From NCBI GenBank assembly GCA_033439295.1, contig JAVTLE010000015.1, positions 186,001 through 250,000 of the forward strand: 64,000 nt of DNA, read 5' to 3'. The notes below the pieces were generated by a model, which saw nothing but the letters and a program-made list of their open reading frames with translations, did not search any database and was not told the origin of the DNA. The translations under genes were made by a program, and so were the position numbers. Positions 12,912-64,000 of the stretch are shown here, piece by piece. Each line of letters starts with the position of its first letter. Position 1 is the first letter of the stretch. The stretch comes from Deuterostichococcus epilithicus. Its lineage: Eukaryota > Chlorophyta > Trebouxiophyceae > Prasiolales > Stichococcaceae.

Positions 12912-15900
12912 TCATGTCAGGTCTATGACGACTGCATCGTCAGACTCACGCCGCCGCTTGCGCGATACCTGCATTGCTTCCTGCCCTCCACCTGTCGACG
13001 CTATTGCAGCAACCCCGCCATGCTCGGCGTCGCCGCCCCCGCCGCCGCATCCACTGCCAGCGGGCCCTGCGCCGCCGTTCTGCACGCTGCGCTGGCTGCC
13101 TAGCCCGCCGTCATAGCCGCCAGACGCGCTGCCGGCGTTGCCGCCGCCGCTTGTCACGATAGAGTCCCCCGGTCGCACGTCGTCATCAGAATCCAGCAGC
13201 GGCGCCGCCAGATCCTCTGGTGAGAGTCCCGCCGGCAGGCCGGCAGCCACTTGCCGGCTGCCGCCGCCAAGGGTCCCTGCCGGCTGGCCGCCGACAAAGA
13301 GCTGCCGTCGTGCGCTGCTCGCGCCCCGCGGCTGACTGCTGCCGGCGCCTGTCCCGGCCTCGCCGCCTCCGCCAGCGTGCTGCGGTGTGCCCTGCGGGCG
13401 GCTGGGCCCGCCGGCGACGGCCAGCGTCTGCCGTTGCAAGGACGCTGCAGGGGACGATGGACCGACGGAGGCGCCAGGTCCGGGCAACGTGGCTGCACCG
13501 CTGAGCTGCCGCGGCGCCCACGTCGAGAACTGCGCCGCGCTGCCCATGTTGAGGCCTGCGTTGATCGGTGAAGGATGGTCGGCAGTGCGCTAGCGATGAC
13601 CCACACCGGTGCCAACACGCTGGCTCCATTCAACAGCAACTCGGCAGGGCCCTCGGGATTGAGGTCATCGTCCAGGACCTGTGCCGGTCCGTGTTTGAGG
13701 ACACCAGTGGCCAAGGCGCTGGGTGCACTCGAAACCAGCTCGGCAGGGCGTGCCCAGGACGCAGCTTCCATAGCTCATCGCAATCCACAGCCCTTCTGTT
13801 TCGAGGAGGTGTAGTCTCTGAGACAGCTGAACAGGTCGCTGCCGCCACCAGGCGCGGGTCCTGCAGACGTTGGAAAGTGTGACGCACCTGTGGCAGTGCC
13901 TGCGAGGTTGCCGTCCAGCATCGAGCCCACCACATTCAGCTTGGCCCTGCGAGCGCCGATGATGGAAAAGGTGGCTGTGAGGATGCAGTTTTGTGGTCCT
14001 AAGCTGAGGCAGACCACTCCCAAGCCGGAGGACCAAGCAAGGCACCCATGCCACCGAGCCTGCGGAGGGCTGCTCAGTCGGCCATGGACGCAGTTTCGCT
14101 CAATGAAACTGTAAAAGAGAACCTCCCAGGCAGGCACGGCAAAGCAGACTGAGTTGCACCAGCCACAGGCCACAGGTCGCGACTCGCACCTGACGACGGG
14201 CCAAATGATGTCGTCGATGGTGCCAGGCGCGTGGAGGTAGTGCACCTCGATGCTGCCAGCCTGGCCCAGCCGGTGCGCTCGATCCTCCGCCTGGATGAGC
14301 TGCGCCGGCGTCCACACCAGCTCTGCGAAAACCACTGCCTCCGCCCGCGTGAGCGTGATGCCCACCTGCAGCATCGCACAGCATGACATGCCTTCACAGG
14401 ACAGATGAAAGCGAGCTGCACCTGCCGAGCAGACCAGCTTTGCAAAAGCTGCCGCATCTTCCCGCAATGTCGTGAGGAACACCTGCAAACAGGGCATTGG
14501 CAACACAGTGTTTTGACGAATTAGCAGGGTGCCCAGCTTTGAGTAGGCTCGCAACTCTGCACTCATCCGTGTGACTGCTACCTGCAGCCTTGACACTGAC
14601 GACAGCAGGATATTGGTGCTGCAATGGAGAGCCACCTCGCCCGAGGTTCACGATCACGAGGTCCAGCAGTGAGGGCATGATTCGGCTGTCCACGTGCGCT
14701 GCATCTATCTGTCCAGCCCAGCCGCGCAGGGACCCGTCTAACCCCAGCTTGGCAGGCAGGAGAGCCAGCAAAGGCAGCGCAGGTCTGCCCTGCCTGGTTG
14801 CAATTCTGTCGCAGATCAGATGACATGAGGTCTGATCCAGTCAACACATGCCACTTGCCCCCGGACCATGGTGGACATCAGCGCCAGGCGGCAATCGGCG
14901 CTACACCGGAACTCATCCATAACAGGCTCTGCCGTCGCGGTGCCAAACGCAATCGCCCAAGATTCTTTGGGCAGGAGCAGCAGCAGCAGCTCCCACCCCG
15001 GCGGCAGTGATGGACAGCAGCGCCACGCGGCAGTCGGCGCTGTCCTGAAACTCGTCCACAGACCGCTTGCGGGCCACGTCGGGGGTGCCGCCATCGATAC
15101 GCACGCCGTGGCGCCCTGGCTGCCCCGTCATGCAGGCCGCCTGCAGCGCGTCCAGCACCGCAGTGTGGTGCGCAAACACTAGCAGCTTCACGCCTGCGGC
15201 AGATTTCAAAGTGTAAATCATTGCAGCCATTTCAGATGTTGAGCATTGCAGCCAGAACATTTGCATGGCGTCTTGTCACAGTGTGGTGTGCAAGCACAAG
15301 CATGACACCTGCACGAGAAACCGGAAAGAAGCTGATTCATTGCGGTGTCAAAAATGCTGTGCCCGAGCATCGGGTTCATCAAGCTGTCTGAATGACATCC
15401 ATTGCCATGGTAGGTGCCAACACCCGCAGTCTCACGCCGGCAGATGTCAGACAGCGTCAGACGTGGAGTGGCAAAGATGACGTGCGCATTGCGTGATTGG
15501 TGCGAGGGACTGATCAATTCAAGCGCTCTGGAGCGGCTGCCCGCCAGTGCAGACTTCTTCACCAATCATTGCGCATTCTTCACGCCAAATCAGCAGATCG
15601 GCCGATGCCCACAACCTGGACAGGCAGTTGACATCCCACCTCGGTCCAGCAGCTCGTTGACATGGTCCGCCGTCGGCGCCGCCTTGGCGTCGCCGCTGGC
15701 GCCGTAGAACTTGTTCAGCAGCACCTGCCGCCGCCGGTATGCCTCCTCAGGGCGCAGCGACGAGTTGTCGGCCACCGCCGCCATCTCCTTCTGAATTGCC
15801 ACCAGATCCTGCAGAAGGCAGAACCGGAATCTGTTGCCCTTCCCCTTCAGACACTGAGTTGCAGGCCACCGCCGCCATCTCCTTCGATTCTGGGTTACCA

Positions 15901-18900
15901 TCAGTTGTGCATAGACAATCAGGGAGCGATTTACGGGCGCAGTCCGACTCAGCCCACATCAACCCGTCAGCAGACAGCTCGGCGCGGGCAGCGGCGCTGT
16001 TTCAAGCTCCGCTCTGGATGTCGTGCGATGCTTGCAATGATGGGCGTCGGCACAACACCGGGGCTCCAGAGCTCGTCTCCTACATCAGATCTCTGCAACC
16101 ACTGTCCACAGACCATGGCAGACGGTTAGAGTCATGTCACACCTTGAAGTGCGAGGGATCCGGCAGGATGGGCACACGCATACGGCGCTTTGGGGGTAGC
16201 TCGGACAGTACCTCTTGCTTTAGACGTCGCACCATGCCTGCCGCCTGCAGATCACGCCACAAGTCATCATTCATGGGTGAAGCCAAGTTCCACAGCTGTA
16301 GCCCCAGGATTTAGACTGCAAAATAATGGCCTTAGGCTGCATTTATTGTTTCGGCGGCGAGCGCGGTGTTTGCTGACCTGTGCATGCCACCAGCTGCCAC
16401 ACTTAGCCCTGAAGCCAGATCAGACTATCGCGACCAGAAGCAGACCGTGGCTGCTGCAAGCACCGCCGAATTTTGTTGCACAGCATGGAAGGTGTTATTG
16501 CAGACGAGCTGGTTATGGCACCTTGCAAACAGCATACCGTCCCTCGCACACGAGACCGAAGCAGGCTCCAGCGCATGCCGCAGCAGCAGCGGAAGAGTCT
16601 ACGCACCTCGAGAACCGCGTGCAGCTCGGGGACGTTTGCCGAACCGCTGTACTGGGTGCCGTACCCAAAGCGCGCCGGCTGCGGGTCGCAGTAGCGGCCG
16701 CCAAAGGTGGACAGTGCCCCCAAGCCGCCCCTGGTCAGCATGTCCAGCTGCAGGGCAGGGGGCGTCGACAAGCAATAAGCCCGGCGAATGAGCTCGAGGC
16801 TCGGGCAGAGTGAAGCTAGCCACAGTGACTGAAAATTCTAGATGGCTCGTTGTAGGAGCAGAATGCCCTTCAAAAACAGTGCGATTCGTGACAACTCACA
16901 AAGGGTCGGGCACTTGCTTGAACTCAAAGCATGGGCACAGGGGCGACAGCTCGGTCGACTCAGTGGCCTGCGCAACTTCCCAGCCTGGCTGTACAATCCA
17001 CACAGCCAGGCTGAGCATGTGGCGCGTGAAGCCGCTGAGTGCCAGACTGCCCCTGCTGAAGGCCCGACTTCTAGCAGTTGATGGCAAACCATGGTAAACA
17101 TGCAGGAACCCGAAGGCCGCCTACACCCTACGGACCCCTGTTCGTACGCTGAGACTGACAGGATAGAGGATGTTCCGCCATGCATGTCCTCGGAGCACAA
17201 TGGTTCTGTGCACACCTGGGGATACAGCTCAATGGGACGAGACAGCGCAGGCGTGCCGGTGATGAGAATGGCACGTGTAGCGGCTTTCACGAGCGGTGCC
17301 ACTGCCTGCAAAGTAAGAAAGGGGACTCGCCATATGTTGCCGAATTATTTCTTCATAGATAGTTTACAACAGTGGAATGCTGCGCTGCTTGCTGCATCCG
17401 ACACTATTTGCAAGAGCGCTAAAGCAGTATTGTTGAGCAGGCCTCAAGACCACGAGAGAAGCCTGGACCGCTTCCAGAAGCGGTGCGAGTTGCAGGCAGC
17501 AGCAGAGCCGCCAGCTATTCAACCCAGATGTCTGCCCTGCTGAGATACTCGGCTGGTGAAATGCGGTGCCAGACCGGGGCTTGCCTGCGTGCGCTGGGCC
17601 GTGGGCGACTTGAGGGCATGGCTCTCGTCGGCGATGACGACCCCAAACTCCGCAGCAATGTCCTCAGGCAGCTTCTTGATGAGGTCATCTGAGCAGGGAG
17701 GGACAATTCCAATTCGAAGCGGGTGATGTTACAGCATGACATGGTCTGTTCTGCAACATCAAACACAGAACGATTGCCGGAAGGACAAGAGGCCTGCAAG
17801 GCTGAGCTTTGAGACAAGCAGGCGCTAGGACCGCACATGACACGATGAGCACGCGGCGTCGCTGGCGGCGCCATGCCGCCGTCAACTTCTTGCCAACGTC
17901 CTGGAGGGTCATGCCCACACACACAGTCCCAAGTTTTTTGCCGGCTTTCGCGGCGCCACAGTATCGGTGCAGACGCGACTGGAAATGCCAGGTGCAGACA
18001 GAGCGTAGCACCGCGGCCGCGGCATCGACGAGGACCAGCATCATTGCAGAACATGCGGCAGCCCAATGGCGGCACAATGGCATCGTGCAGTGGCACACCC
18101 AGTCATGGCCATTCCCATTTCTAGCTGGTGCAACGGTGGTGGCCGTGGCGTTTAGCCCCACTCAGAAGTCAACACGTCCAGCCAAAGCTGTGTGCCACAA
18201 GCAGCGGCGGAAAGGCCAACATAGAAGCGCCTCCCTGGAAACGACATGCAGAGAGTATGCTGGTGGAATGACAATACATAAAATGAGAAACTTTGCATTG
18301 GTCACACCAGGGTCGCACCTTGCCAGCGGCGACGATGGCGATCTGGTCTGGCGGCGGCAGCAGCGCGGGAGGCGCCCAGGTCAGCAGCGCGTCATACCAC
18401 TGCAGCCGCAGCGAGGAAGGGCACACGATGAGCAGCGGCCAGTCGTCCGGGAAGCACGCTGCGATGCAGATGGCCTGCGGCACAAGAGCATGCGAATCAG
18501 TGAAGTGTGCTCACTCACTTACTGCAGAAATCGGTAATGCTCCTCAATGCAAGAATTCATCGGCACTGTCCAGCTTGCATGCCAGGCGATGTTCCGTCCC
18601 CATCAACAGCTGCTACATCCTGACATCCCTACCTGCACCAATCTTGCCTGGTCACAAGTCGTCGGCCAGCACGCAGCGCTCGCATTGCTGCACTTCCCCT
18701 AAACCCTATAACTGGTTCGGGTGAATGAAGCCCCTTGAATCATCCCCCTCATACCTGCACCGTCTTGCCCAGGCCCATCTCGTCCGCCAGGAGGCAACGC
18801 CCGCCGTGCTGCACGCCCCTCTGCACGCCGGCGCGCTGGAAGGGGAACAGCCGGCCCCACACCTCCGCAGGGATGCCGCTCAGGCGCTGCTGCACGTCGC

Positions 18901-21900
18901 GCTGGTCGACTGCGAGCGCATCGTGGGAGCGTATCATCACGGCTGTCAGAACCAGGAAGCTGCAAACAGTGATGTTGGTTGTAAGGAATGCAGCGACGCG
19001 CTGCTTGCCGAGCGCTGGCGTACGACGACCACTGCATGCTTGCCAGGTTGACTGCATCCAAAGTGAAACGTTGAGACCCAACAAGAGAGGCCTTCACCTC
19101 ATAAACGGGGCAGTCCTAGACGCCACTGCCAATTTTGACCCTCAGGTTGTGACTGCCATGCAAATGCTCCAACAGCGGAGCAGCTGCCACTTGACCCAGG
19201 ATTCATGGGACAGCAGGAGGACAGCCATCGGTGTCACACAGCAGCCTTTGCCACCTTGGCGGTTAGCGGATGCTACTGCAAGAACATTGCTTTTTGCCCA
19301 ACGTCCTGCTGATGCGGGTCAGTCCGCAGGCATGGCGGTCCCAGCCAGCTGGCTGTCGCACATTGGTTCAGGTACAGCAGCAAACGATCACGGAAGGCAT
19401 CAGGTCCACGGATGGACGTGCAGAAGGGCACAACACACCGGGCAGCGCCAGACCCTACCTGCAGGCCCCGCCGCCAGCAGTTTCAGCACCTTCTGCGGCG
19501 GCTGCTTCACCTCCAGCTCCGGAAGGTTCGCTTTGATGGCCGCCACGACCGCTTTCGTCGCCGCCAGCGGAAACTCCCACAGCCGCTCGCCGGCGTTCCA
19601 GCGCAGGTCGGCCTGAGCCTCCGGGACAGACCTGCATGTGCGGGCGTGCGGCAGCAGCTCCTGCTCAGCAGCTGGCTTGTGTCAGCAGGGAGTTCCACGG
19701 CTGCTCGCCGACGTTGTGGTGCAGGTCGCCCTGAGACTCCGGCACCGAACCGCGGCGGCATCGGCAGCGATTTTCGAATCGTCAGCACACGTTCCTACAG
19801 GCGCTCGCCAAATTTCCAGCACATGTCCCCTGCGCCTCCAGCACGACCTGCAGGGCAGGCAGCGGCGGCCTTCGACTGCGGGAGGTACATGGACCCTGGG
19901 TGCAGAGTGCCCAGCCATGGTGCAGTCATGTTATGTAGGGTTCGACGGCTTGGCACAGGAGACCACCAACAGCCTGCCAGCAGGCGTCTCTGCCGGAACA
20001 AGCTTTCAAGGCTGCAGGTGGGAGCGGTGTCCTGCCAATATCGGCAGCAGCCCAAGTTCAGTGGGCCAGCCTGCTGAAGTGGCACTGCTTGTCATGTGAT
20101 GATGTCCTCAAATGCTGACCCACGTAGCCAACACGCTGCGCGGTGCGAAAGGTCACTAGACTGCTGCTCTCCGACTTGCATGCCCTGCCACAGGTGCCTA
20201 GCACCAGTAAGGTGTGGAGAGGAATGCCCGCAGAGGGCCGCCGCCGAGTCAGTTGCCAACCAGCAGTGTGTGACATGTGGGGCAGCAAATGCAGGCACGA
20301 CTTGCTTGGCGGCTAGACTTCTCTGTGCAACGAGCTGCCGGCATGACTGCTCAGGAAGAGCGCCTGCCCCGGCAGGGTACAAAGGGTGCCGTTGGTGAGC
20401 ACTGCGGGCATGGCCATACCGACAGTTGCTCCCAGCAATTGCAAATTTCAGTCGTAACAGCGCTCTAGGAAGGAAGCACACTTGACCAGGTCGATGAAGG
20501 CTTGGCTGAATGCCGTCTTGGCGCCGGCGCGCCCGTTGCCGAGCATCTGTATGGCCACTGTGCCAGCGCCTGCCCCGCCGCCGCGGCTGCCCTGCCCACC
20601 CTGTGCGCAAGATCAGACAATCAAGTGGCGAACAACCGAGACATGCGAGACCGCGAGCGACCATGTTGATCTCTGCGCTGCCTGCGCGGTAGCGCGAATA
20701 CCAGTCCCTGCCCCCGTCGCTGTGCCGCCGCCGCGACCCACTGCCCCAGCAAGGGGCGTGCACCACGCAACACATCCTGGTCCTGGCCCAGTCAAGGCCT
20801 CCGTGGCAGCGCGGCCCACACTGGCCGCCCAACTTCCATAATCAGGACAAAAAGCGCCACGACAGGTCATACTGGCGCCTTTCCGAGCGCGGCTGGTTCC
20901 ACTGCCTGCCCAAGCGCCTACCACAGCCTGCGACAGCGCTGCCCCGTCCTCCTGCAACTGCCTGGAGGCGCACAGGTGTTGAACCCACCTCCTGCGACCC
21001 ACGGGGCGGGCTGGAGAATGATGCCGGCAGCTGCCTGCCGCTGCCGGCGCTGCCGCCGGTGCCTGCACGCGGGTTGGGGCAGTCCTGCGACCAGTGCCCC
21101 TCCTGGCCGCACTTGAAGCACGCCCCCGGCGGCGAGCGCACGCCGCCGGCAGGCGATTGCCGCTGCTGCGCGGCCCCACCGCCCGGCGACCGCAAGCCAG
21201 ACGGCGTCCCAGCAGCGCCAGCGCCGCCGCCGAGGGACGCCGGCAGCGCCCTCGCGGGCGTGGCGGGGCTGCCCTGCTGCCGCGGCGGTGTCGCCGGTGT
21301 GTTCTGGTTCCCCATGGGCTGCTTCGTGTGGCGCCACTCCTGCTGCGCCGGCTGCGCCGCGGGCGTCATGCGGCCGCCAAAGTTCATTGCACGCCTGGCG
21401 CCAGAAGCGGCATCACTGCCCCCTTGCGAGCGACATGCAAAGAATATTTGTCAGCCACGAGCAGCACGACAGCAGTGTGTCGAGCACACTGGCTGTGTCG
21501 AGAGGAAATGCGGCGGCTGCATAGTGTGCATTGACACTTTCAGGCAGGGATGACTGCAGCGTGTGCCAGATGCGGCCTGCGCCGAGTGGGAGGCAGTACC
21601 TGGAGAGGGGCCAGGTGTGCCGGCGACGCCGGCATCGGCCCATGCGACAAAGCCGCAGCCGCCGGGCATCCCCAGCGAGCACATCCACGCAGGCCTGCAC
21701 AGCAGAGAGGGTAGGTCACCGCTGTCTCAAACAGCGAAGTTTGTTGAGCCCCAGGCACACTGACAACCTCCCGGGCATGGTCCTGCCGCATTTCGACAGC
21801 AGCGTGCGGGAAGGGTGGGCGAATGGAGCAGTGGTGCCTGCCTCAAGATCAACAGAGGGGAGATCAGCAGACATGGCATCCAGCGATGATCCCTCATCGT

Positions 21901-22098
21901 AGTGCAATGCTCACCTGCAGCCGCCGTATGTTCGTCATGGCATTTCACCTCAACAGTGCTGTAGGACGCCTGTGACATTCGGTGCCAGCCCTCTCACCTG
22001 CCCTCGTTCCTGCCCTTGGTGACGGTGCGCTTGACTGACGGCGAGCCGTGCGTCTTGCATGGCGGGCCCCGCCCGCCGGCGCCCGGAGGCGTCTGCAT
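12912..22098 (-). CDS. SMARCAL1: SMARCAL1-like annealing helicase with GRF and CCHC zinc fingers, HARP domain and C-terminal SIM
   Basis: SNF2-family ATPase of the fork-remodelling (annealing helicase) class, expected in the nucleus. The start at 22098 (MQTPPGAGG) is the first ATG after an in-frame TGA. The GRF finger is split: PPCKTHG...GRNEGR, then WMC...GGCGFVAWAD (about 21700-21620), with matching splice phase. A CCHC knuckle (CFKCGQEGHWSQDC) sits in the exon at about 21390-20960. HARP follows as AFSQAFIDLVK (about 20600-20480) and WNAGERLWEFPLA (about 19625-19450). Helicase motifs are LLADEMGLGKT (about 18780), LLIVCPSSLRLQW (about 18430), VVIADESHALKS (about 17600), RAILITGTPALSRP (about 17250), MVRRLKQEV (about 16230), LLVFAHHTAVLDAL (about 15170), and AEDRAHRLGQ (about 14270). 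The last exon is Gly/Ser-rich and ends ESDDAVVIDLT, a canonical SUMO-interacting motif, then TGA. Linking the GRF/CCHC exons to HARP is inference from order and strand: one splice-phase mismatch there is unresolved. Confidence 0.8.
14867..15095 (-). repeat. Exon and decayed copy (helicase C domain)
   Basis: The exon at about 15000-15095 encodes VDEFQDSADCRVALLS. A copy at about 14867-14945, just downstream on the coding strand, reads MDEFRCSADCRLALMS. The two can be aligned base by base over about 80 bases, with scattered substitutions. Confidence 0.65.
15757..15892 (-). repeat. Exon and decayed copy (helicase linker exon)
   Basis: The exon encodes QKEMAAVADNSS (about 15757-15805). A copy about 90 bases upstream on the coding strand (about 15846-15890) reads SKEMAAVACNSV. 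The core of roughly 20 bases is identical. Confidence 0.6.
19555..19860 (-). repeat. Three copies of part of a HARP exon in a row
   Basis: The functional-looking copy (about 19555-19630) reads ADLRWNAGERLWEFP on the minus strand. A second copy at about 19682-19750 gives GDLHHNVGEQPWNS, and a third at about 19797-19855 gives GDMCWKFGERL. Spacing is about 115-125 bases. The upstream copies lie in the preceding intron and look progressively decayed. Confidence 0.6.
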
Positions 22099-30111: not shown

Positions 30112-33100
30112 TCACTCGCCCAGCTGGTCCCGTTCGTCGGCGAAAAACTCGTTGTCTCGCACCACCATGTGGTCCCGCGCGTACTGGCTCAGTCGCACAT
30201 CTGGGTCCCCCTCCTCCTCTATATCGTACTCCGGGATGTACGCCGGCGGCGGCACCTCCCGCATCTGCACGCCTGCGGATTCGGGTGCGGGGCGTCAACA
30301 CATGTGACGTCTCGCAACTTGCTGGCAGCGTCCATGTCTGGCGCGATGAGGGGTGTGCCCTCGGGCGACACCTGCCGCGCGTGCACGTCTGCAGGCGCAA
30401 CGTGCCAACTGGATGACAAGCGTGCACCCAGGGGCACCCCTGTGCATTTGGAGTCCTGTGGAATCGGATGTGCGACAGTCTGAGGTGGGATGACAGCAGG
30501 CCTGCAGCCTGTGCCAACAACAAGGTGGAACCTCAGGTGCCCTTCCAGCCGTCCGCAATCGTGTTCGCACTCCCGCCTGCCTGGCCTGGCAGCAGCGCTG
30601 TGCAAGGGTGCGGGCCCAACGGACTCTGCGGTGCAGCTCTGCAGCAGAAAAGGGCTGCAATGCATGTGGTGCACTAAGGTGCCACGCACCGGGTGCAGAG
30701 GAGCAAGCAGCGCAGGTTATCCAGCACCGCCTGGTAAATGTAGCTCGAAAGGCAATGGAATGCCTTTCGAACTGTTTCAGACGTGCTGCTTGTGCAAGTG
30801 CTGAAAGGGATTCGCACCGGGCGCGAAGGACAGCTGGCGCAGGTTTTCCAGCACGTCCCGCCGGATGCGCTCCACGTCCTGCTTCGTGTTCAGGTTGTCC
30901 ATCGACTTCTGCAGACGCACCTGCGGCAGAACGGCGGCATTCAGTGGCAGAGGTGTAGCGAGCGTTTGCATGAGGGGCGGCATCTCAGAGTCACCGGCTT
31001 TCAGGTTGTCCGCCGGCCCTGCGACCGCGCCTGCGGCAAGCGGGCAGCTCAGCGGCCGCTTTGTCTGGCTTGCGGGAGCGGCCCCAGGACAGAAATAGCT
31101 GTGCGCATGGCACACCATCCTTTTTCATTCACTATAAGCATAAACGGGAGCGCAGCTTTCACGCAGTGCCGGTGGTCGGGTGCAACGGCACCAGACAGCG
31201 TGCAAAGACCACTTGAAGCAAGCTTCGCAGCCTGCCTGTTGGAAAATACACAAGTTGAAACAAAACATGTAATCCTCGGACCGAAGCGCTCACATTGAGC
31301 CGGTGATCGGGAGCAAAGTAGTCGTAGTACTCGTGCGTGATGTCGGAGCGCGGAATTTCGTCCGGCAGCGCCGCATCGGCGTCCACCAACACCGCCGTCT
31401 CGTAGGTCCAGCAGCGCGCCACGTTGTTTTTCGTGTAGCCGCCGCCTGTGGCAGGTTGGCGACAAGCCTGTGAGGCAGCCTACGGTTGGTCTGCATCTGC
31501 ACCCACCAGCGTCACGGTTGATAAGTCCAGCAGCGCGCTGTGTCCTTGCAGCCGTCGCTTTGGTTAAGTACAGCCTAAGTGCCACAAATTCGGGCCCTCC
31601 AGCCATCGCTGCCGCAAAGTGGCGCCTCCACTTCTCTGCATGACAGTGGTGCCGCCGCTGACCCGCCAGCATCACAAATCGCCACCGCACGCCAAACCAG
31701 GCGCTCGGCACAGGGCGATCTTCTCGCAAACTTACAGCGTTTCTTATAACTGCGGCCGATGCCCGGCACCAGACGCATGCAAGTTTCGACAGCCGCGACT
31801 GCACTGCCAGCAATGAGCAGGGGTGGAGGGTGGGTGCCTTCATGGAGCGCACCTCCCCTCCCTCCACCAAGAGACTCAAGAGGCTGGCAAGAGAGACATG
31901 CAACCCAGATGGGAGCTCAAGGAGCCTGGGGAGCGCACCGCCGGTGACGAGCAGGGGCAGGTTGAAGCCCTTCACGAAGCGCACTGCCTCCGCATGGCCC
32001 GCGATCGACAGGTTGAAGCAGCCCAGCCGGTCGTTTGCCAGCGAGTCCGCGCCTGTTGTAGTTGAGGATCGCGCTGAGCAAATGCAGCATCGGCAGGCTC
32101 GTAGAGTGCTTCCGCCTTTGACGGGTCTGCACTCCTCGTGCAGTGATGCGTGAGGCAGTGCCGCGCTAGTTTAAATGCCTACCAATCATGGCAGCAGCTG
32201 TTGTACGCAGTCGCAACTGGCAGTCGCAACCTTGTTAATCTTCGACGAGGATTTCCTATGTCTATGTCTCAAAGCTCACGCAGTTGCCAACCCTACATCG
32301 ACAACCATGTGAAAAGTGCAGCGCCTGAAACATCGAAGAACATGGTGTACGCACCACACTGCAGCACCACGGCACCGGGCTGGAAGGTGTCGATGATAGC
32401 CTGCATGATGGGCTTGAACAGGCGGTGGAAGGTGGCGTCGTCGGTGCCGTCCCGCAGCGGCACATTGACGCTGTAGTACTTACCGTGCTTCTGCGACACG
32501 CAGCGTGGAGGAGCGTCGGCAACAGGGATGGTTCGACGAGGAAGGATCGAGCGTCTGTTCCGAGCACCCAGATGTGTGAGCATGCTGCGCAAGATGATGC
32601 ATGTGCAGGACACAGGTGGCCGCCGCGGCCGCCGCTGCTGCAGCAGCAGCAGGCGCAGCAGGCATCAGCTTTCGGGACCATGTGGTCGGACTACCAGGCT
32701 GCTGATAGGGGTATTTAAGGGTCTTTTAGAAACCCCTACTGCTGAGCCTTCGCTGCGGGCTGCCGGACTGCGATCTGTGGTGAAAGTATTACGGGCGCAC
32801 CTCGCCGACGTCCTTCAGGTCGCCGGTGCCGGGGAAGAAGAAGTCGCCGAATTTGTGGAAGCTCACCGTCAGCACCCTGGACGGCATGGCACACCTCTCA
32901 GATTGCCACATGCTCGCGGGGTCCTGTCGTTGTGCTGTGAGCGCATGGCAGAATCAGCTGCAGCGACGCCTCAGAGCCAGTGCACATGCCTCGAGCGCCA
33001 AGAGCGTTCGCCAGCCGCCGTGCAGCGCATCTGAGGCGCAACAGCCTGCACCTGTGGCGGCGGGTCTGCTCCTGCATGCTGGCGCTGTTGTTCTGTTCTA

Positions 33101-35219
33101 CTGCTGGTTGCTGGAACAGAGAGCAGCCCGTGGAGCACGGCTCTCTGTCCAGTAGGGGGCTCCCTCGGAGCCGTGGTGCGAGTCGACAAATCCCTCTCTT
33201 CTCTGGGCTGACTCGTCGATTCCAAGGCCACCACTGCCAATTGGTGGTGGAGAGGACGGCCTGTTCCACGCCGTTGCCGTGGCGCATATCCACGCAACTT
33301 CGATCTTTTTGCACTGCATTCTAGACCAAGTCAAACCTCTACAACAGCAGCGGCGCACCGGTCGGTGAGGTAGAAGGCTTCCTCCACGCCGTCGCCATGG
33401 TGCACGTCAATGTCGATGTACAGCACCCGCGCGTGCACCTTCAGCAGCTCCAATATGCCCAGCACCAGGTCATTGACGTAGCAGAAGCCGCTGGCCTGAC
33501 ACGCACACAAGCGCCACAGTTTCTTTGACAGCTTGCATCACAAAAAGATTTGCTTCCACCACCCTGTCGAGCAGCTCCAGTGCTTCCAGCACCAGGCTGT
33601 CGACACAACGAAAAGCCGCTTGTCTGCAATGAACAGGAGAAGGTGAGCATCAGCTCCAGGCATTTGATTCTTTGTAGACTAGCAGCAGGTCCAGGGTATC
33701 CAGCACTAGGTCGTGTTGACATGGCAGCAGCCGCTTGATTGGGCGCACGTGAAGCCGGCGCTGGAAGCGAAGGTCGAAGTAAGAGCGCAGATGAAACAAA
33801 TAAATTGCTCGAGGAAGATTGAGAAGTCTGTAGGTCTTCGCACCCTGTGGAATACTACAGGCCCGCCAAAGGGCCCCTGAGCAGTTGTGGGGAAAGACAA
33901 TTCCAGATTATGGGCAAGCGAATGTGTTTTAGGTGTGGCAAACGGCAGTTGCAAGCCCCACCTCAGACTTCTTGGCGTGGTGCAGGCCGCCAGCCCAGTT
34001 GATGGCGATGTCGGCCAAGCCGTCATTCAACTTCACAGCGCCGTCGACGGAGCCGCCAGCGGTGATGCGGCAGAAATCGAAGAGGTGGGGGAACACGGGG
34101 CAGTCCTCACCCAGGTTGAAGTGCACCAGCTGGGCGTGGTGATCCTACGACGACAAGGGCGCCGGCGCGTGTTTTTCATTGGTTATGTGGTTGAGTTGAC
34201 GGTAGCGGCAGCGGCAACCATTCCAGACTCAGACATTGTTGGACAGTTCGTTATGTACATTGCTCTTATCAACAGACAACGCCGAACTCTCTTGACCTGC
34301 TGGGTGCGCCTCGGCCATCAGATGCGCTCAGCCTTTCGGGCATTCTTGGGAAGGTACCCTTCGGTCGGCCCACAGTTGCAAGAGCAGGCATGCCAGTTCA
34401 GGTCCCTATTCCCCTGCAACCCTGATAGTCCACGCCGCTCCCACGCGTCCAGGGTGCTGCACCACAGAAAACTCCAGGTACTCGGTGCCGAATGGAAGCG
34501 TTAAACCCTGAAAACCTTCTGGGCGCACCTCTTGAGCCTCCGGAGATATTCGCTGCAGGAAGTCGAGGTACTCGGGGCTGTGGAACTGCGCCAGCTCCAC
34601 CAGGTAGCTCCGCCGCGGCCGCTGCAGGAGGGGGCAGCAGCACCAGGGTGGGCCTCCGCGGCCAAGCAGGCTGGCTGGCGCTGGGTGCGTCGCAAGGTGC
34701 ACTCACTTCAGGCGGGAGTGGGTGTTGCGACGGAGCAACGCGGATGTGTCATGTGTTATGACTACAGAGGCTACTGATAACTGCGGAGGCTACTATGTGA
34801 CAGGAACAGCTTCACGGCCGCCCAGTACTGCACTGGACGGAACAGAGCGGGGTGCCCCGGGAGGAACGCACATAGACCTCCATCTTGTCGTGCAGCCCGT
34901 AGCCCAGCACCAGCGAGTGCGTCATGCTCAGCCGGTGCGGCTTCATCGGGTGGTTGGGCCCGTAGTACATGGACCCCACCTCGCCTGCACAGGAGGTGTC
35001 CTCATTGGCGACTGCCAGTGTTCCACATGAACCCTGTGCCGCAGCATGCTACAGTGGTTTTGGCGTCAAGGTCACACAGCCAAGCACTGCAGACGGTCCG
35101 AAGAGCTGCTAGCCGCCGCAATGCATACCCATGGGAAAACCGCAGCAGTGCCTCCCGGGCCTGGACAGCAGCAGAGACTCACTGTCATAGAAGTACGCGA
35201 CCTTCTCCTTGCGGGGCAT
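30112..35219 (-). CDS. HDA9: Class I (RPD3/HDA9-like) histone deacetylase
   Basis: Zn-dependent lysine deacetylase, nuclear. Start at 35219 ([13 protein letters not shown]). Exons in order: [21 protein letters not shown] (about 34985-34880), [22 protein letters not shown] (about 34626-34530), [20 protein letters not shown]...[12 protein letters not shown] (about 34125-33965), [19 protein letters not shown] and [16 protein letters not shown] (about 33500-33365), [16 protein letters not shown] (about 32880-32800), [13 protein letters not shown]...VVLQCG (about 32480-32355), [13 protein letters not shown]...NLPLLVTGG (about 32055-31942), [15 protein letters not shown] (about 31450-31310), [10 protein letters not shown] (about 30925-30805), [14 protein letters not shown] (about 30265-30112). 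The charge-relay HH, the zinc ligands DxDxHHG and the later Asp are present. The N-terminus and the QM(R/Q)EVPP...YIP tail match plant HDA9 better than HDA6/19. It ends ERDQLGE at TGA. It lies divergent to the PWR-like gene. Confidence 0.9.
33252..33423 (-). repeat. Deacetylase active-site exon and decayed copy
   Basis: The exon segment at about 33370-33423 encodes [14 protein letters not shown]. About 120 bases downstream on the coding strand, at 33252-33305, lies a copy whose frame reads [12 protein letters not shown]. The alignment runs over about 50 bases with conservative changes. Confidence 0.65.
33437..33735 (-). repeat. Three tandem copies of a deacetylase exon segment
   Basis: The real exon segment at about 33437-33500 encodes [18 protein letters not shown]. 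Two copies follow in the upstream intron, at about 33565-33628 and 33677-33738, spaced about 112-128 bases. Each keeps the CAGCACCAGG/CAGCACTAGG core and the AGCCGCT block on the plus strand. Both copies are decayed. Confidence 0.65.
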
Positions 35220-36133
35220 GGCGGCGCGGCTGCAGCGGCGCCGGCCGGCGGGGGCAGCTGGCGGCCGTCGTCTCGCCGGTGCGTGCGGGCGGGGCTGCGC
35301 ACAGCCCTGGGGCGTGGAATCACCGCATGCCGGCCTGGCGCCGCCCTCCGCACCCCGGCCACGACTGTGCTGCGCTGTCAGCGACGCGGCGGGTACCGGG
35401 AGTCTTGGGCACCGCTTTCAGCGGTGCGCCTGGAGCGCCGGCGGTCTGGCCCTTGCAGCCTGCAGAGCAGCTGCTCCCGGGAACTCCGGCAAAGACGGGA
35501 GTCAGGCGGGGCACGGCGCTGCCGCGCTGCCAAGCAGTCAATGACGAGTAGCGATGGGGATTCGGGACGGTCGCATGTGTGGGACTGGCTACGGCAGCGC
35601 AACACGAGAGCAGGAGACGGCAGCTATGGTTGAGTTGTAGGCCTGCAAGGGTGGGGCACGTGACTGGCACTACCTCGCGTGAAATATAAGCGCGAAGCTG
35701 CTCGCCGCGACCCTAAGCTCCAGGACTTCTGCAGCCAGTACGGCGTCGCAGTGTGTAATCGGCAGAATAAGTGCTGGTTGCTAAATCTGTTGCTGGTACG
35801 GCAGGTTCAAAAACCCTGGAAGCAGGAAACAGCAGCGCCTTAACACGCTTAGATGGCCGGACAGAAAGCGCAGTCGTGGGCCGTCATACGGCCTCTGTAG
35901 TCATACAGACAAGCTGCTGGAAGAGCATATGTCAGCCGCACGCCCCCGAGCGGCGCCTGCGTGCCGCATGGCTTAGCCTTAGTGACGGGTCCAGCCGGGC
36001 TTCACCGGCGCTGCAGATGTCGGACAGGCAGCCTGACCGCTGGGCCGGCCAGGTGTGAGCTCCTACAGCTTTAAATGCCGCTAATGATGTTCGAAAACCG
36101 CTGCATCGGCGCCTGTGTTCACAGTACTACACG
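35220..36133. promoter_or_regulatory. Divergent promoter region between the HDA9-like and PWR-like genes
   Basis: Head-to-head starts (minus 35219, plus about 36134) leave about 0.9 kb. I see no TATA box or obvious operator. A shared promoter is inferred from layout alone. Confidence 0.4.
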
Positions 36134-46040: not shown

Positions 46041-46122
<82 letters not shown>

Positions 46123-49100: not shown

Positions 49101-49171
49101 CGTGTGGAGTCGAAGCTCCAGCTGCGCCAGGCAAGGCGGGTGAAGGCCCACAGCCATCCGCGCAGTCGTGA
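36134..49171 (+). CDS. PWR: POWERDRESS/NCoR-like SANT-domain corepressor
   Basis: Large chromatin scaffold that in plants partners HDA9 and in animals (NCoR/SMRT) HDAC3. At least 20 exons, several with matching phase: 36360-36582 (WERGGPGPRNWFPGG), 36851-37962 (Pro/Ser-rich with KRRRLGWGQGLARLR, the plant PWR signature, then KLELMTTIEQ), 38177-38761 (VDADLSSIETELAAL), 39045-39239, 39745-39904, 40164-40321, and 40594-40761 plus 41148-41282. The last pair forms SANT1: NRNALVADP...WTPAEKRIFLDKFLQFPK, then DFVRIAQHLDRRTPGDCVQFYY. SANT2 is 42690-42812 (EAAFLEGVRVHGRDAKLIARD). SANT3 is split between 44384-44899 (SYWSIEEKESFLDIFK) and 45166 on (GRDWDRLAAAVPGKT...KNYYQNYK). Gln-rich tracts occur in exons near 44.7 and 46.1 kb. 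The last exon (47888-49171) is Ala/Pro-rich and ends AQS. Exon 1 and the region 45.4-47.6 kb are less certain. Confidence 0.85.
39234..39352 (+). repeat. Tandem duplication at an exon-intron border in the PWR-like gene
   Basis: The exon end CCAG plus donor GTGCGCGC and the next ~45 bases occur twice (39236 and 39303), about 66 bases apart, with several substitutions. Both copies keep an AG/GTGCGCGC junction. Confidence 0.65.
39412..39466 (+). repeat. Short intronic tandem repeat
   Basis: GCTGTTTTTGTTGG followed by TGTCTGAGA occurs twice in a row with one small length difference. Confidence 0.6.
44268..44383 (+). repeat. Tandem duplication ending at a splice acceptor in the PWR-like gene
   Basis: Two units of about 57 bases (GTCAGATCAC...AGGCTGCAATCTG...CTGTGGCGC) run up to the acceptor of the exon at 44384. 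Only the second ends in a CAG acceptor; the first ends GCTC. Confidence 0.65.
44702..44755 (+). repeat. (CAG)n microsatellite encoding poly-Gln
   Basis: About 18 uninterrupted CAG units in frame inside the PWR-like coding exon. The tract sits between a Gly-rich segment and the third SANT domain. Confidence 0.9.
46046..46122 (+). repeat. (CAG)n microsatellite encoding poly-Gln
   Basis: About 25 CAG units in an exon of the PWR-like gene, flanked by HHH and AAYAAQQQ. Purity suggests that length may vary between strains. Confidence 0.9.
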
Positions 49172-50666: not shown

Positions 50667-53600
50667 TCAGTAGTTGGCCTCCGAGAGCTCCGCCTTGGCC
50701 TTCTCCAGCATCTGCAGTCGCGCAAACAGCTCCTCCCTGTGACGCAGAGGCACACGAGAGCGTCAGCTCCTGCTCTTGGACGTACACACGCTGACTGCGA
50801 CAGCTCTCGTTGCTGCCCGTTTCAACGCCTCGCGCAGCGCCAGCCGCGCTGTCATGCACCAAGGTGCGACCTGGTGACATGGTGCAACCATGATTACGCA
50901 AACAAAAGACGGCGAAGCAAGCCGGGAGGCGCTGCAGCGCGCAGCAGGAGGAGGCACAGCAGAGCGAGGCAGGACTGTATGTCCACCCCAAACTTAAGAA
51001 TTTGAAGACGGATGCTCCCTGAGACAAGACAAGGCGTCGCACCGCTTCTTGGCGACGGACTCGTCCTCGCCGAGCATGCGCTTCAGGCCGCCGTCCTCCT
51101 TGGCCGCCACCTCCTCGTGCAGCTTGTCCAGCAGCTTCTTCTTGGACTGCATCACCTGTCACGGGCGGCGGACGACGGCACGAGTCTCAGGCACGGGGGT
51201 CGAGACCCGCGATCACTGCTGTGCGCTGTTGCCAGCCACCACTGCATCACAGGCCCTTGACGGGGACGTGCACCGGCGGCAGAAGCAGCGGTACATGCGC
51301 GACTTGAATGTGCAAGGCAAGGCAGGGGGGTTGAGGCCCTCCAAAGAGGGGTAAGAGGGGGGTGGNAGGGACGGGCCAGGGGCGCGCGCACCAGGCAGTG
51401 CACGATGGCCTTTGGCAGCGTGTGCTTGAGCTGCCGCCGGACGTGCGTGATGTAGGCCGATGTGTGCGCCGCGATGGTACGCAGGTGCCTGTCCTCTTCG
51501 GGCCCATCGTTGATCATGTCCGCCATCGACCGCCCGTCCAGCGTCAGCGCCAGCCCCGTCTGTTCACGGGACGACAGCAGGAGTCAGGTGAGCAGCCGCT
51601 CGGACTGGCGGAGCATGCCAGTGGCAGAAGGTGCTTGCGAGATGCAGTGCCCGCACGCCGTCGCTGGCGCATTGCACAGAGGCGAAGACAGCATCGGGGC
51701 CTGCATACGACGCTGCTGCTGCCGCTGCAGCTAGAATGGGGTCTCACAGATCGAGGTGGTGCCTGCCAGGTGGTTGACTGCCAAGGATGATTGCTGCCAG
51801 CGGGTGTGGCCGAGGAAGGGTCGCAGGCACCACAGCGCAGGAGGAAGAGGCAATTGAAGGTACAGCTTGCTTCCCCTGGAGGACTCGGAGACTGCAGAGG
51901 GGGACTCACGTGGACCTCCTGCGACATCTCGTCGACGGCGTGCGTGGAGGCCAGGATCTCGCGGAACACCTCTGCCGTCAGGTAGGACCGCTCCATCTCC
52001 ACCATCTGGCCCACCATGTCGCGCGCCTCCTCCTTCATCTGTGACGTCAGGACCGAGCAGTTCATACTTGCACTTCACATGCCTGAGGCACAAGTTTCTG
52101 GCGACATCATGTGGGGTGCCGCCTCCTTCAGTTGTTCAGGCGGCGATGCTGCACACCTCGCGTCAGCCAGTGCGGTCCGCAGACAGGGATAGCTGCCTGG
52201 GACAGCCGTGCGGTGCAGTTTCGAACTGGGTAGTGGCTCCTGTTGCAGCTGCCATGCTGGGTGTTGTCGAGCAGGCCCCTGCTGCCGCCGCCTGAATAGG
52301 CGCAACCCCGCATTCGCAGCCTCAGACCCCAGCACGCCGCAGCTGCCCCCCCCGGCCGCCCTTATCCCTTCGTCCGCCCGTATCGCCGTGCGGGTCGGGC
52401 GGCGCGAGCGGCCAGCAGTGCACCTTCTCGAGGGAGGCGGCGGCCACAGTGGCAATCTCCCGCTTCAGCACGATGTACCGCTGCAGCTGGGAGCACTCCT
52501 GCCCGTTGAGCACCATGCCTACGATCTGGCGCAGGATCGCGTGCACCTCCTCCACTGCCTGGTCGCCGGGGCCCTGCAGTGCGATGTTTTCAAGGTTTAG
52601 CACCAAAACTTGTGTGGTCTGAGATGTTGTACAGAGGGCGGTGCACCTCCTCCAACGCCTGGTGTCAGGGTTTAGAGCTGGCGGGGTCGGCCTTTTTGGC
52701 CCTGCAGTGGCACACTCCATTGTGAAGGAAGACGGAATTTGTGGAGGAAAGGCGAATCATCATGAAGTAGCGCTGCGCGGCCGGGCGCTGCAGGTAGCCG
52801 GCGGCGGGGCCGAGTGTTATGAGACCGGAGTTGAGTGCCCTGCAAGATGCGGGAGAGGGACGGCGCGCTGACAACATGAAACCGCCGCTTGAGGCGCACG
52901 CGCGAGCAGGCGCAAGGTGGGTCAAGCTCGCAAGGCAGGCGGGTGACAGGCAGCCGCGGCTGAATCTGGTACCGTGATACATATCCAGCAATCCCAGAGC
53001 GCGATTTATCCTGACGTCTGGGCATAATACCCTGGTGTGCGCATTGGTGGCATTGGCAGCATCTTCGACGGCTAAGGGCTGCAGTCCAAGCCCTCGGACT
53101 GCGGCCCTTACCCTCAGACCCAGCAGCCAAAGCCCGCAATGCGCAGCTGCAGCAGCGCATGTCCAGCTGCTGATCGTGCAGAGGAGGCTCTCAGAGCACA
53201 GGACCGGAGCATCTGATCAGGGTCGGTTCGAAAGCAGACCCAGAATATCCGGTGCCGACCACATTTCCTATGCTGCGCACCTTGAACAGGATGAGGCACT
53301 CCTGCAGCAGGCGGCGGTAACCCATCTCGGGCGCCACCAAGTGCGGCTGGTAGCCGTCCGCCTCGCTGATCACGCGGTCCACCTGCCAGGAGAGTGGAGT
53401 CGTCAGTGAACCCCTTCTCCTGGTGCTGACCGCCACTGGCTAAGTTACAGGCGCGCAGACAAAGCAACTTCATGAGCACGCCCTCACGATTTAGCAGGGC
53501 ACACAACAGCGCGAGGCATTATTGTAAGGAGCATGTCAGCCCTCCCTTGAGTACAGCACAACCATGAAGCAGGAGCAGGGAGCTGGCGGGACGCGCTCAC

Positions 53601-60863: not shown

Positions 60864-63800
60864 ATGGGCAAAACAAAGCGCTCCAGCAAGCGCAACCACA
60901 CGGTGGCGATCCACGGGACCAGCGCCTACCCGTACTCGCCCAAGGCGGTGCAGCCCCGCAGCAAGCCGCTGCCACGCACGTGAGTGCCGCCGGCGCAGCC
61001 CTTCCCTTGGCCATGGTCCACAGCAAGGGCTTGTGGACTGACCCGCTGCTTGCCGGGCACTTGCTTGAGGTGTGCTGTCAGACCGAGCGAGCTCAGTCCC
61101 GTGCCTGAGCGCTCCTGACCTTCGAATCGACCGTGCAGGGCATATTCCGCCAGCGACCTGCGGCGCCTGTTCACAAGCGTGAAGGGGCCCAATGGCATCA
61201 CCAAAAGCCGCGCCGGTGCTGCCAGCCCCTCGCTGGCGCACCGCGCCGCCAGCGGCCTGGAGCGCCTCATTGCCCGCATCATGCGCAGCCCGGCGGCGGG
61301 CAGCGGCGCGCACGGCCGGCGCAGCAGCGGCGGCGGCGGCGGTCTGTCGCCGGACACCTCGGCAGCGCGGGCGTCATACCTATCAGCCGTGGAGGGCAGG
61401 TGAGAGGACCGAGCAGATGTGCTGAAGCGGCGCTGAAACGGACATGGGGGATGCTACGGACTGTGGACTGGAGCCCTGTTGGCGGGGCTGCACCAGGACG
61501 GATGCATGGACTGAAGGAGGAACTCTACCGCCGAAGTTCCAGAGGTAGAGAACGTCTGCGAGCATGCGTGAACGAGTGCGTCACCATGTCTGCGCGTGCC
61601 TGCGCCCGCAGCTCGCTGGAGGAGTGGCAGATGACGGCGTCAGACAACCAGCTCAAGCGCCTGGGCTTTGTTTTGGCATACGCAGACTATTACTTCCACT
61701 GGGTGAGCTGAGCTTCAGCTGCATGTTTCAAAAAATGCGTGCAGTCTTCCTCTCCATGGCTGGTCAGCAAGGCGTTGGGGGCGCAGCCGCAGCGTCCATG
61801 CCTGCATGGCTGCACAGCTCATCGACACCGGCAGGGCTGAACCCTGTCACCCTGCTGCATGTTGGCGCGCGCCCCTGTGCATGGCCGTGAGCAACACATG
61901 CGCACCCGAGCGCCGGCCGCCTGTGCTGGTGCCGCAGGGCTTCGGGCTGGCGGCCTCAGTGTACAGCGCTGACAGTTTTGTTCTGCATTTATTTCAACCA
62001 TTTACTTATCCACTAGGGCTTTGGGCTGGCGGCCTCAGTGTACAGCACGGGGCGGTCGCTGGTGCCTGGCCCGCTCGCGGGCGTCGCCGGCTCCCTGGAG
62101 TCGACGGTGACAAACATCAGCATGCCGGTCATCAATGCGGTGACGGACCAGAGTGGCCGGGTGCGGGGCTCCTGCACCCTTGAACTGCCCTGCTGTCGAG
62201 CTTCCCGCAAGTGCACATGTACCGCATTGTAGCCGCTGAGGCGGATTGCTGCCATCTACTGTGCCAAGCATGATGTTATGAGGCTGCAAGGCCTGGCGTC
62301 TAGCTCAGCTGAAGGTTGAAGCTTACTTCCTTGGCTTCCAAAATCTGCTGCAGGTGCTCCAGTACCCCTGTTCGCAAAGGTGGATTGCGTCGGCAACGCC
62401 GCCAGCGGTCTTTGTGCAGCCAGACCTTGAAATCCTGGACTCCCGACTCTGCCGCAGGTGCTCAAGGGCCTGGACGCAAAAGTGGACAACGTCATCAACG
62501 CCGCCAGCGGCCTGTACGCCAGCAATGCCAGCGCGCTCAACAGCGCGGTGGCCAGCTCCGAGAAGGGGCTGGCGGTGTGCGCCGACGCCAAGGACGCGTA
62601 CCTCCACAAGATCGAGGACGCGCTCGCCCTGCTCAAGGTGGGTGTAGGGGTTACGGAGCCCAGCGACAGCCCATCCTCACTCTCCTGCCGCTGGAGTTTG
62701 GGAACCGCTTGGTGGGGACACTCAGTCGGTTGCACAGGCTGCGGCGCCAGGCACAGGCATCGAGGCCCTGCACCCGGTTGTAGTTCGTGGCCTCGTTATG
62801 GCTTGTGGCGCGCCCGGCCTGGCAAGTCGGGGACTGCAAGCCGTGGGGAGCCCCTAGCAGAGCTGGTCGCATGCCCCGCACCCTGCAGCAGAGGGTGTTG
62901 CTGTCGGACAAGCAATCAGCGCGACAGTGTCCAGAGCCGCTGGAGAGTGTGGAAAGATGGAAGGAACCTGTGGCGACCAGGGCGCATGCCATGTATCCGT
63001 GGGCGGAAGCTGACAGACAAGGCGGCGGTCATCGGCACATAGGAGCGCGGCGCCGCTGGCGGTAAATCACACACTCGCCACCGGGGACGGCGCAGCATCC
63101 TGTACTGTCCCACTCGCATTCTCCTCCGTCGCCTGGCCCGGCAGTCGTCGTGTCAGGCTGTGGGAGCGGGGCATGGGATGGTCGCCATCGCGGGCAGCGC
63201 AGCACCCCCTTCTGTTCAACTTGCATCTTCCATTGTTGACCGACTCCCTGAACCCTAAACGTGTCTGCTGCAGGAGCGGGGCATCGGCGGGGCGGCTGCG
63301 CTCGCGGCAGACAGGGTGGTGGCCACCGTCGGCAGCGTCAAGGCCATCCCGCCGTACCTGGAGACGGAGGCGAAGGCGCTCATGCTCAAGGTGGGGGCCT
63401 CCGCACCTGTGCGTCGGCTCACCCACCCCCGGGCAGCGTTGCCGGGGGATCTGCGAGCACGTCGAACGTGGCACACGGACACGCGGCCCGACCTGCGGGC
63501 TGCGGCCGAGGGCAGCCGCACGCGGGCACCGCCGGCCGTCGCTCGACCCGTCCGAGCGCCCTGCGCTGTCTGGCTACCAGCAAACCCTAAACCCTAAACC
63601 ATAAACCCCACCATCACGTGCAGGTGGGCGACGCGTGGGCCAAGCTGGCGGCGCTGCCGCCGGTGTCACTGCTGGTGTCCACAGCGCAGCCGTCCATCGA
63701 CTTCGCCTGGACCAAGTACCTCGACGCGCATGACGCCGTTGTCACCGCGCCCTCGTACAACAAGTGCGCAGCCTGTCTGCAGCGACCCTTCTGCATGCCT

Positions 63801-64000
63801 CAGCAGGGTCTCCCTTCGTTCGTCTGCCCGGACCAAGCACCCTTGGAAGCGCACGACGCTGTAGTTGCCGCGTCCTCCTGTGCCAGGTGAGCGGGAATTT
63901 CTAGGGTTTTGAGGCCAGGGCCCGTCTGAGACGCCACCTCGCCCCCCTCCTGCGCTGCTTCAAATCCTTGCACCGCCGCGCTGGGCACGCCCTCTGTGCA
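60864..64000 (+). CDS. REF/SRPP family protein (lipid-droplet associated type), 3' end beyond window
   Basis: Rubber elongation factor/small rubber particle proteins coat lipid droplets or stress-related membranes in plants. Exons: 60864-60979 (MGKTKRSSKRNHTVAIHG; an in-frame ATG at 60834 is an alternative start), 61139-61399 (basic, Gly/Ser-rich), 61612-61702 (NQLKRLGFVLAYADYYFHW), 62017-62160 (GFGLAASVYSTGRSLVPGPL...SMPVINAVTDQSGR), 62458-62637 (VLKGLDAKVDNVINAASGL), 63274-63390 (VVATVGSVKAIPPYLETEAK), 63624 to about 63763 (GDAWAKLAALPPVSLLVSTA...WTKYLDAHDAVV). Phases match throughout. The core from LKRLGF to VDNVI follows the family pattern (conserved YL/RLGF, GPL, VDxxI). The first two exons add about 125 residues, basic and low-complexity, not typical of plant members. 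No stop is seen before the edge in the preferred splice form. Confidence 0.75.
61938..62046 (+). repeat. Near-identical duplicate of an exon start, each with its own acceptor
   Basis: GGCTTCGGGCTGGCGGCCTC and the next ten bases (61938-61967) recur at 62017-62046 with one C/T change. The first is preceded by CAG, the second by TAG. The 79-base offset puts the two in different frames; only the second continues into the conserved REF exon. Confidence 0.8.
62354..62528 (+). repeat. REF/SRPP exon and decayed copy
   Basis: The exon start at 62458 (GTGCTCAAGGGCC...CAACGCCGCCAGCGG) has a decayed copy at 62354-62425 (GTGCTCCAGTACC...CAACGCCGCCAGCGG). Both follow a GCAG acceptor-like end. Confidence 0.7.
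63582..63610 (+). repeat. Interstitial telomere-like repeat in an intron
   Basis: AACCCTAAACCCTAAACC followed by ATAAACCCC, about three to four units of CCCTAAA, lies just before an exon of the REF gene. Shorter seeds occur at about 18696, 43791, 52668, 54686, and 63251, most of them in introns. Confidence 0.8.
63705..63884 (+). repeat. REF/SRPP exon segment and decayed copy
   Basis: At 63705-63764 the exon encodes WTKYLDAHDAVVTAPS. About 120 bases later (63825-63884) a copy reads LEAHDAVVAASS. They share GGACCAAG(T/C)AC and the GCGCA(T/C)GACGC block. Confidence 0.7.

Follow-up and report, generated by a model that had tools for sequence, protein, structure and literature searches.

Introduction

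Can introns grow by taking up copies of the exon edges beside them, and do they keep a readable record of the event? A 64,000-nucleotide stretch of the Deuterostichococcus epilithicus genome (hereafter, the window) raises this question. A preliminary description of its sequence noted that introns of four genes, encoding a helicase, a deacetylase, a dynamin and a REF/SRPP protein, hold partial copies of the adjacent exon, which we call echoes, and proposed that local duplication gains or lengthens introns in this lineage, with tandem duplication of exon DNA containing AGGT as a model. Intron lengthening is rarely caught in the act, and such scars would make growth by duplication measurable against other routes in one genome and its relatives.

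Materials and methods

The genome is assembled in 21 contigs (46.8 Mb). The window occupies bases 186001-250000 of contig C13, and its GC content is about 62%. Contigs C1 and C3 carry terminal telomere repeats (CCCTAAA/TTTAGGG). The main survey covered 314 kb, made up of the window, the 10 kb that follow it and 24 further 10-kb stretches from elsewhere in the genome. The near-diagonal self-alignment, the offset classes and the counts of direct and inverted tiles were obtained from 234 kb (the window and 17 other 10-kb loci), and later counts from the full 314 kb.

Gene structures were predicted with a small, unsupervised hidden Markov model gene finder that was self-trained on the sequence rather than guided by RNA evidence. 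Over the 314 kb the model returned 644 exons, 577 introns and 67 genes, 65 of them intron-bearing, with a donor consensus of AG/GTGCG and an acceptor consensus of YGCAG/G (slash, splice junction) and a median intron length of about 240 nt. GC replaces GT in about 13% of the predicted donors. Six window proteins from the model match Pfam families (kinase, SNF2 with Helicase_C, Hist_deacetyl, three dynamin domains, L21e and REF); the window had no match in Rfam or tRNA scans.

Near-diagonal self-alignments were gapped, scored at 36 or more after simple repeats had been filtered out, and compared offsets of 30-400 with control offset bands. A second, junction-centred scan examined 554 introns of at least 60 nt and 1,040 splice junctions against two controls. 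The identities reported for echoes are biased upward by the detection threshold, and the echo counts are probably low because the gene model called some echoes exons (for example, 52641-52670).

Results

Echoes are a genuine and unevenly distributed feature of the genome

Self-alignment of the window yielded 14 near-diagonal pairs at offsets of 30-400, against 0, 0, 0, 0 and 1 in the five control bands, and the 17 other loci yielded 43 pairs against 2, 1, 5, 0 and 3. Repeat offsets in these 234 kb are most frequent between 100 and 140, and a lesser peak falls at 200-280. The copies lie on the same strand as their source, as first noted: local repeat tiles, which overlap and do not equal events, numbered 83 in direct and 2 in inverted orientation, with 3 in the far-distance control. 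Templated insertion of the polymerase-theta type leaves copies in both orientations, a feature not found here. We also sorted the pairs with offsets of 60-300 and scores of at least 32 in the 314 kb by the class of their members, and counted 44 exon-intron, 22 exon-exon (as called), 12 intron-intron and 0 intergenic pairs; random pairing, computed for the first 234 kb, predicts 33%, 10%, 34% and 20%, respectively. The lack of intergenic pairs is striking, with the proviso that pairs involving an exon stay recognisable for longer, an effect for which this comparison has no exact control.

The preliminary description had proposed aligning exons to their flanking introns against shuffled controls. 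At scores of at least 30, such matches were present in 39 of 1,058 exon-intron pairs, compared to 4 of 1,058 with the reverse complement, none of 1,058 with shuffled sequence, none of 1,058 with introns of another gene and 2 of 1,038 with non-adjacent introns of the same gene. The junction-centred scan identified 62 echoes at the 1,040 junctions (1 and 3 in its two controls), 36 on the acceptor side and 26 on the donor side, in 46 of the 577 introns and in 18 genes. In the window and its next 10 kb, 16 of 116 introns have echoes, and the expectation that echoes occur across the genome was borne out when this stretch was left out: they were still present in 30 of 461 introns and in 13 of the 54 genes with introns. 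Forty-seven of the 65 intron-bearing genes have no echo, among them, in the window, the kinase gene with 18 introns and the L21e gene with 6. Clustering by gene was evident as well in the exon-intron matches at score 28, a set separate from that of the junction scan, which fell in 46 introns of 19 genes; 30.4 genes were expected, and the lowest of 2,000 simulations gave 22. These results confirm that echoes are a genuine feature of this genome, distributed very unevenly between genes. The assembly of the window is imperfect, with 18 bases in single or short runs of N, yet we give almost no credence to chance or an assembly artefact as their source, given controls near zero, graded divergence accompanied by frameshifts and the occurrence of echoes on many contigs.

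Echoes in the window

All four genes named at the outset carry echoes in the junction-centred scan, and a fifth carries one. The predicted SNF2-type helicase gene (12912..22098, minus strand; Pfam SNF2-rel_dom, Helicase_C and zf-CCHC), which we take to be SMARCAL1/HARP-like, has seven echoes in five introns, all on the minus strand. Two stand in series on the acceptor side of one exon, whose start at 19577-19630 is echoed at 19695..19748 (offset 118, identity 80%) and, as 19575-19636, again at 19791..19852 (offset 216, 77%). The exon starts at 15762-15791 and 15161-15184 have single echoes at 15856..15885 (offset 94, 93%) and 15279..15302 (offset 118, 88%), and the exon start and acceptor at 14297-14370 recur at 14414..14487 (offset 117, 69%). 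Exon ends are echoed at 18630..18692 (from 18752-18814, including the donor; offset 122, 77%) and 14869..14919 (from 15008-15058; offset 139, 80%).

The predicted histone deacetylase gene (30112..35969, minus strand; Pfam Hist_deacetyl) contains six echoes in five introns, again on the minus strand. An exon start and its acceptor (33443-33498) are copied at 33571..33626 (offset 128, 72%), and the same exon start (33442-33492) is copied in series at 33685..33735 (offset 243, 75%). Other exon starts are echoed at 31492..31538 (from 31373-31419; offset 119, 74%) and, with the acceptor, at 30999..31038 (from 30889-30928; offset 110, 78%). The exon end at 33383-33404 has its echo at 33265..33286 (offset 118, 86%), and the exon end and donor at 30813-30854 have theirs at 30685..30726 (offset 128, 79%).

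The sole echo of the fifth gene, a large one at 36017-49278, lies at 39294..39320 on the plus strand and copies the exon end and donor at 39227-39253 (offset 67); the homology runs on into the intron for a total of 46 bp. This GC-rich gene also has long CAG (glutamine) repeats at 44559-44755 and 46006-46187. The dynamin gene (Pfam Dynamin_N, Dynamin_M and GED) contributes one of the 62 echoes, at 52098..52130 on the minus strand, from the exon start at 52005-52037 (offset 93, 79%). A further copy on that strand, of 52541-52570 at 52641..52670 (offset 100, 83%), falls outside the 62, part of it having been called a 12-nt exon.

In the REF/SRPP gene (Pfam REF), four introns hold one echo each, all on the plus strand. 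Three copy exon starts: the AG and exon start at 62015-62046 at 61936..61967 (offset 79, 97%), and the acceptors and exon starts at 62448-62513 and 63260-63287 at 62344..62409 (offset 104, 78%) and 63150..63177 (offset 110, 83%), respectively. In intron 6 the intron half of the module is doubled too, as 63075-63119 matches 63182-63226 at an offset of 107. The fourth echo, at 63828..63877, copies the exon end at 63705-63754 (offset 123, 77%); by our reading of the alignment it is frameshifted, and a donor-like GTGAG follows it.

Echoes are anchored at splice junctions and decay as non-coding DNA

First-order echoes (n = 46) lie at a mean offset of 115 (SD 20, range 67-162), in keeping with the distance of 80-130 bases first reported, and are separated from the real junction by a spacer of 46-102 nt. 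Serial echoes, also first noted in the preliminary description, occur in 10 of the 46 introns, at approximately one, two and three periods. The alignments span the splice junction in 38 of the 62 blocks, and 22 of the remaining 24 start within 26 nt of it. Identity begins at the junction and fades to background over about 40-50 nt of exon; into the intron, the splice motif apart, it is lost after about 10 nt at acceptors and 15-20 nt at donors. In exons of at least 120 nt we counted 36 junction-proximal and 3 weak distal matches, having searched 45 kb and 81 kb, respectively. Thus, the copied material is exon sequence, as the preliminary description held, yet not that of exons in general: the copies take in the junction and the stretch of exon that borders it.

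The degree of decay differs among echoes (identities of 0.69 to 0.97 in the window), and its pattern is that of dead copies decaying as non-coding DNA, fossils of exon sequence as first supposed. Mismatches occur at rates of.157,.171 and.230 at codon positions 1, 2 and 3, and 33 of 36 indels are not a multiple of three. The first-order offsets have no reading-frame bias (remainders 0/1/2 of 7/8/12 on the acceptor side and 5/8/6 on the donor side). The echoes are very unlikely to be functional exons of the alternative or tandem kind, even if in 22 pairs at offsets of 60-300 each copy was predicted as an exon by the gene model, some of these being echoes by inspection. In the 62 echoes neither frame nor coding constraint is kept, AG is retained in 55% of the 31 acceptor echoes, and GT or GC is left in 14 of 21 donor echoes (one of the 21 lies at the end of a stretch, beyond readable bases). 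Echo acceptors have also kept a pyrimidine tract: its content (0.645 versus 0.511, a value that no draw out of 5,000 reached) equals in strength that of real acceptors, and in this the echoes resemble former real acceptors. A search for older, hidden echoes in echo-free introns, with acceptors checked near -115, revealed no clear excess of acceptor- or donor-like sites.

The early loss of similarity on the intron side would also be expected of a splicing- or RNA-linked process that recognises junctions and copies exon ends beside splice-site-like positions of the intron. The flanks of echo acceptors fit this idea in being acceptor-like and, for the most part, not copies of the real flank. Two other observations, given below, weigh against it, and we consider it unlikely.

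Most spacers are unrelated to the flanks of the echo

Plain tandem copying would give each echo a flank similar to the spacer, and most spacers show no such similarity. We found relatedness in 8 of 44 pairs (2.2 expected) and, by a second measure, similarity extending significantly into the intron in 10 of 52 (2.6 expected). The latter count is the first of the two observations against RNA-linked copying of exon ends. High block identity does not restore the resemblance: among 11 listed pairs with block identities of 87-97%, one (intron 26 of L025) had a related spacer at p<0.05, the spacer of the pair 61936/62015 is unrelated at 97% block identity, and block identity and spacer relatedness are uncorrelated (rho -0.14, p 0.36), contrary to what simple tandem duplication with neutral decay predicts. 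Simple whole-unit tandem duplication followed by neutral decay was thus rejected as the account of all echoes, their flanks being mostly non-homologous.

We looked for the source of the spacers in the genome itself. For six echo regions there was no second spacer copy among the best-scoring candidates, and one second match was the echo's own exon. Spacers do not resemble one another either. An introner or transposon as their source was rejected on these grounds, no spacer being common to the echoes. Identity within blocks showed no patchiness (longest-run p<0.05 in 4.8% of the 62 echoes), which rules against patchy gene conversion and does not contradict renewal of whole blocks.

The main rival to the mechanism that we propose below is break repair with filler, in which a staggered break at the junction would be filled to leave a direct repeat of 20-75 bp around approximately 70 bp of unrelated DNA. 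It would produce spacers unrelated to their flanks, so that the anatomy of most echoes fits it, and the sharp edges of the blocks agree with it. The spacers are, however, unlike each other, no other copy of them appeared among the best-scoring genome candidates for five echo regions of 87-97% identity, and a new random spacer would have to compete at once with the original as an acceptor. We regard filler repair as improbable, if worth keeping in view.

The stretch L014 9128-9519 holds an array with a 133-bp unit that includes an exon start and its acceptor, and the middle copy appears, by reading, to be a chimera of the outer two. As aligned, L014 9178 would be a young array of whole 133-bp modules with a chimeric middle copy. 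At 44264-44381 of the window there is a clean intronic tandem duplication (58 bp, 86%) that ends 2 nt before an acceptor and, unlike most echoes, has no spacer. A repeat with a 123-bp offset in the stretch L002 5262-5441 lies within predicted coding sequence.

Introns with echoes are longer, probably by whole periods

Echo introns have a median length of 428 (n = 46), compared to 239 for the 508 others of at least 60 nt (p ~2e-11), and echo-free introns are of ordinary length in echo genes (242 versus 234). The medians rise with the number of periods, from 372 for one to 498, 541 and 803 for two, three and five (n = 31, 11, 3 and 1). The excess equals whole periods: their subtraction leaves a median of 246.5 (95% CI of the difference from 239, -18 to 54.5), and subtraction of the echo blocks only leaves 338.5 (CI of the difference, 64.5 to 178). 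This block-only residual also exceeds the 254.5 (range 220.5-290) of echo-free introns long enough to be hosts of the block, and lies just outside the range when hosts are drawn in proportion to length (289.5, range 249-336.5). The test favours whole modules without proving them, because length-biased insertion of blocks falls only just outside its range. On argument no length bias is expected, because long and short introns alike offer two targets to an event anchored at junctions. The units added to introns were, then, probably modules of a block with its spacer. Insertion of the exon block alone is disfavoured by the lengths and by the few copies from exon interiors, and would need long introns to be favoured as targets.

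The lengths bear on both rivals as well. Addition of the whole period is as filler repair predicts, and it is the second observation against RNA-linked copying of exon ends, since the tests favour an added spacer as well.

The proposal that local duplication lengthens introns was supported; as the main route to new introns it was not. Tandem duplication of AGGT-containing DNA as the intron source predicts an offset equal to intron length, and the two agree within 15 nt in 3 of the 62 echoes. The next echo differs by 53 nt, and in all others the intron is longer by at least 53. The three introns with new-intron geometry are those in which the span of the echo slightly exceeds the intron.

Telomere-type repeats in introns

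Telomere-type repeats occur in introns of the window (18697-18708, 43789-43801, 63251-63260 and 63582-63600) and in other introns. In the 314 kb, 11 matches reach 12 nt or more and every one is intronic; 19 permuted units had no match. At a cutoff of 10 nt there are 21 intronic sites. Twelve read CCCTAAA in sense, 8 of them no more than 60 nt from the acceptor, and nine read TTTAGGG in sense, 5 of them no more than 50 nt from the donor. Because they sit near splice sites, these repeats may be branch-site or G-rich splicing motifs rather than scars of repair. Their density in echo introns (4 in 20 kb) is not clearly different from that elsewhere (17 in 135 kb).

Discussion

A proposed mechanism for intron growth

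We lean towards the view that introns of this genome grew by repeated, in-place duplication of modules of approximately 115 bp that straddle splice junctions. Duplication of a module across a junction would generate two copies of the acceptor and exon start, or of the exon end and donor. Splicing would retain the copy joined to the rest of the exon, leaving the mRNA unchanged, and the other copy, together with its spacer, would become part of the intron and then decay. Later events between the copies would produce the series at two and three periods. Tandem duplication as the type of event is what we infer from these patterns. The excess of junction-proximal matches would arise because in-place events survive only where splicing hides them, duplications wholly within exons presumably having been removed by selection. 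Offsets below about 67 bp would be absent because the real splice site needs a spacer of its own.

Four observations sit poorly with this mechanism: most spacers are unrelated to the flank of the echo, 24 of the 62 blocks stop short of the junction in the alignment, echoes are spread very unevenly between genes, and echo-free introns have no clear acceptor-like excess near -115. The unrelated spacers require a further step. The exon halves of the modules may be renewed by recombination between copies or alleles, through contraction and re-expansion of the array, while the intron halves diverge freely. The apparently chimeric copy at L014 9178 looks like such a renewal, and the absence of patchiness argues against frequent partial conversion, not against the renewal of whole blocks. 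A broader reading, which we offer tentatively and hold to be rather improbable, is that modules of about 115 bp are added genome-wide by a process linked to junctions, making introns grow, and possibly also shrink, by quantised increments; the exon halves would be kept alike by recombination or junction-recognising copying, and the intron halves would be new each time.

Comparison with known systems

Echoes, present in about one of every 12-15 introns examined, are scars that can be ordered by divergence and account for the excess length of the introns that carry them. The closest precedent is the potato RdRp gene, in which a tandem duplication spans the 3' end of an intron and the start of the exon (PMC4974935). 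The two cases share an upstream exon copy that turned partly intronic and splice signals that were mostly inherited, and our echoes likewise include same-strand local copies that span the junction, the mark of a boundary-crossing tandem duplication. The potato event differs in affecting a single gene, in retaining a full and recognisable tandem copy and in creating a new, separate intron via a cryptic donor; here, existing introns were lengthened (46 of 577), with mostly unrelated spacers. A study cited in the same paper describes local intragenic duplications, some with introns, as we see here (PMC4974935).

Tandem genomic duplication is listed among seven routes of intron gain, next to a repair model for new introns in Daphnia that is similar to break repair with filler (PMC3443670). 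The AGGT form of this route (Rogers 1989; Hellsten 2011; via PMC3443670 and PMC4974935) shares with the echoes a direct local duplication handled by splicing, and differs in the equality of offset and intron length, which fits three of our 62. Direct repeats close to splice junctions have been reported as well (PMC11782384); they measure 4-30 bp, are compared across both intron borders and are read as marks of insertion, whereas ours measure about 20-75 bp, lie at one border and occur in series. Introners also alter intron content across a genome, as echoes do, and are copies of a spreading element (PMC9860276), in contrast to our spacers, for which no second copy was found among the best candidates for six regions. 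The titles and abstract openings returned by our literature search describe no genome with common, periodic, junction-limited scars, although an earlier description is possible, and the portion seen of the Coccomyxa genome paper makes no mention of such echoes. Single cases of such events are known; their prevalence here, their period and the restriction of similarity to the exon side look new.
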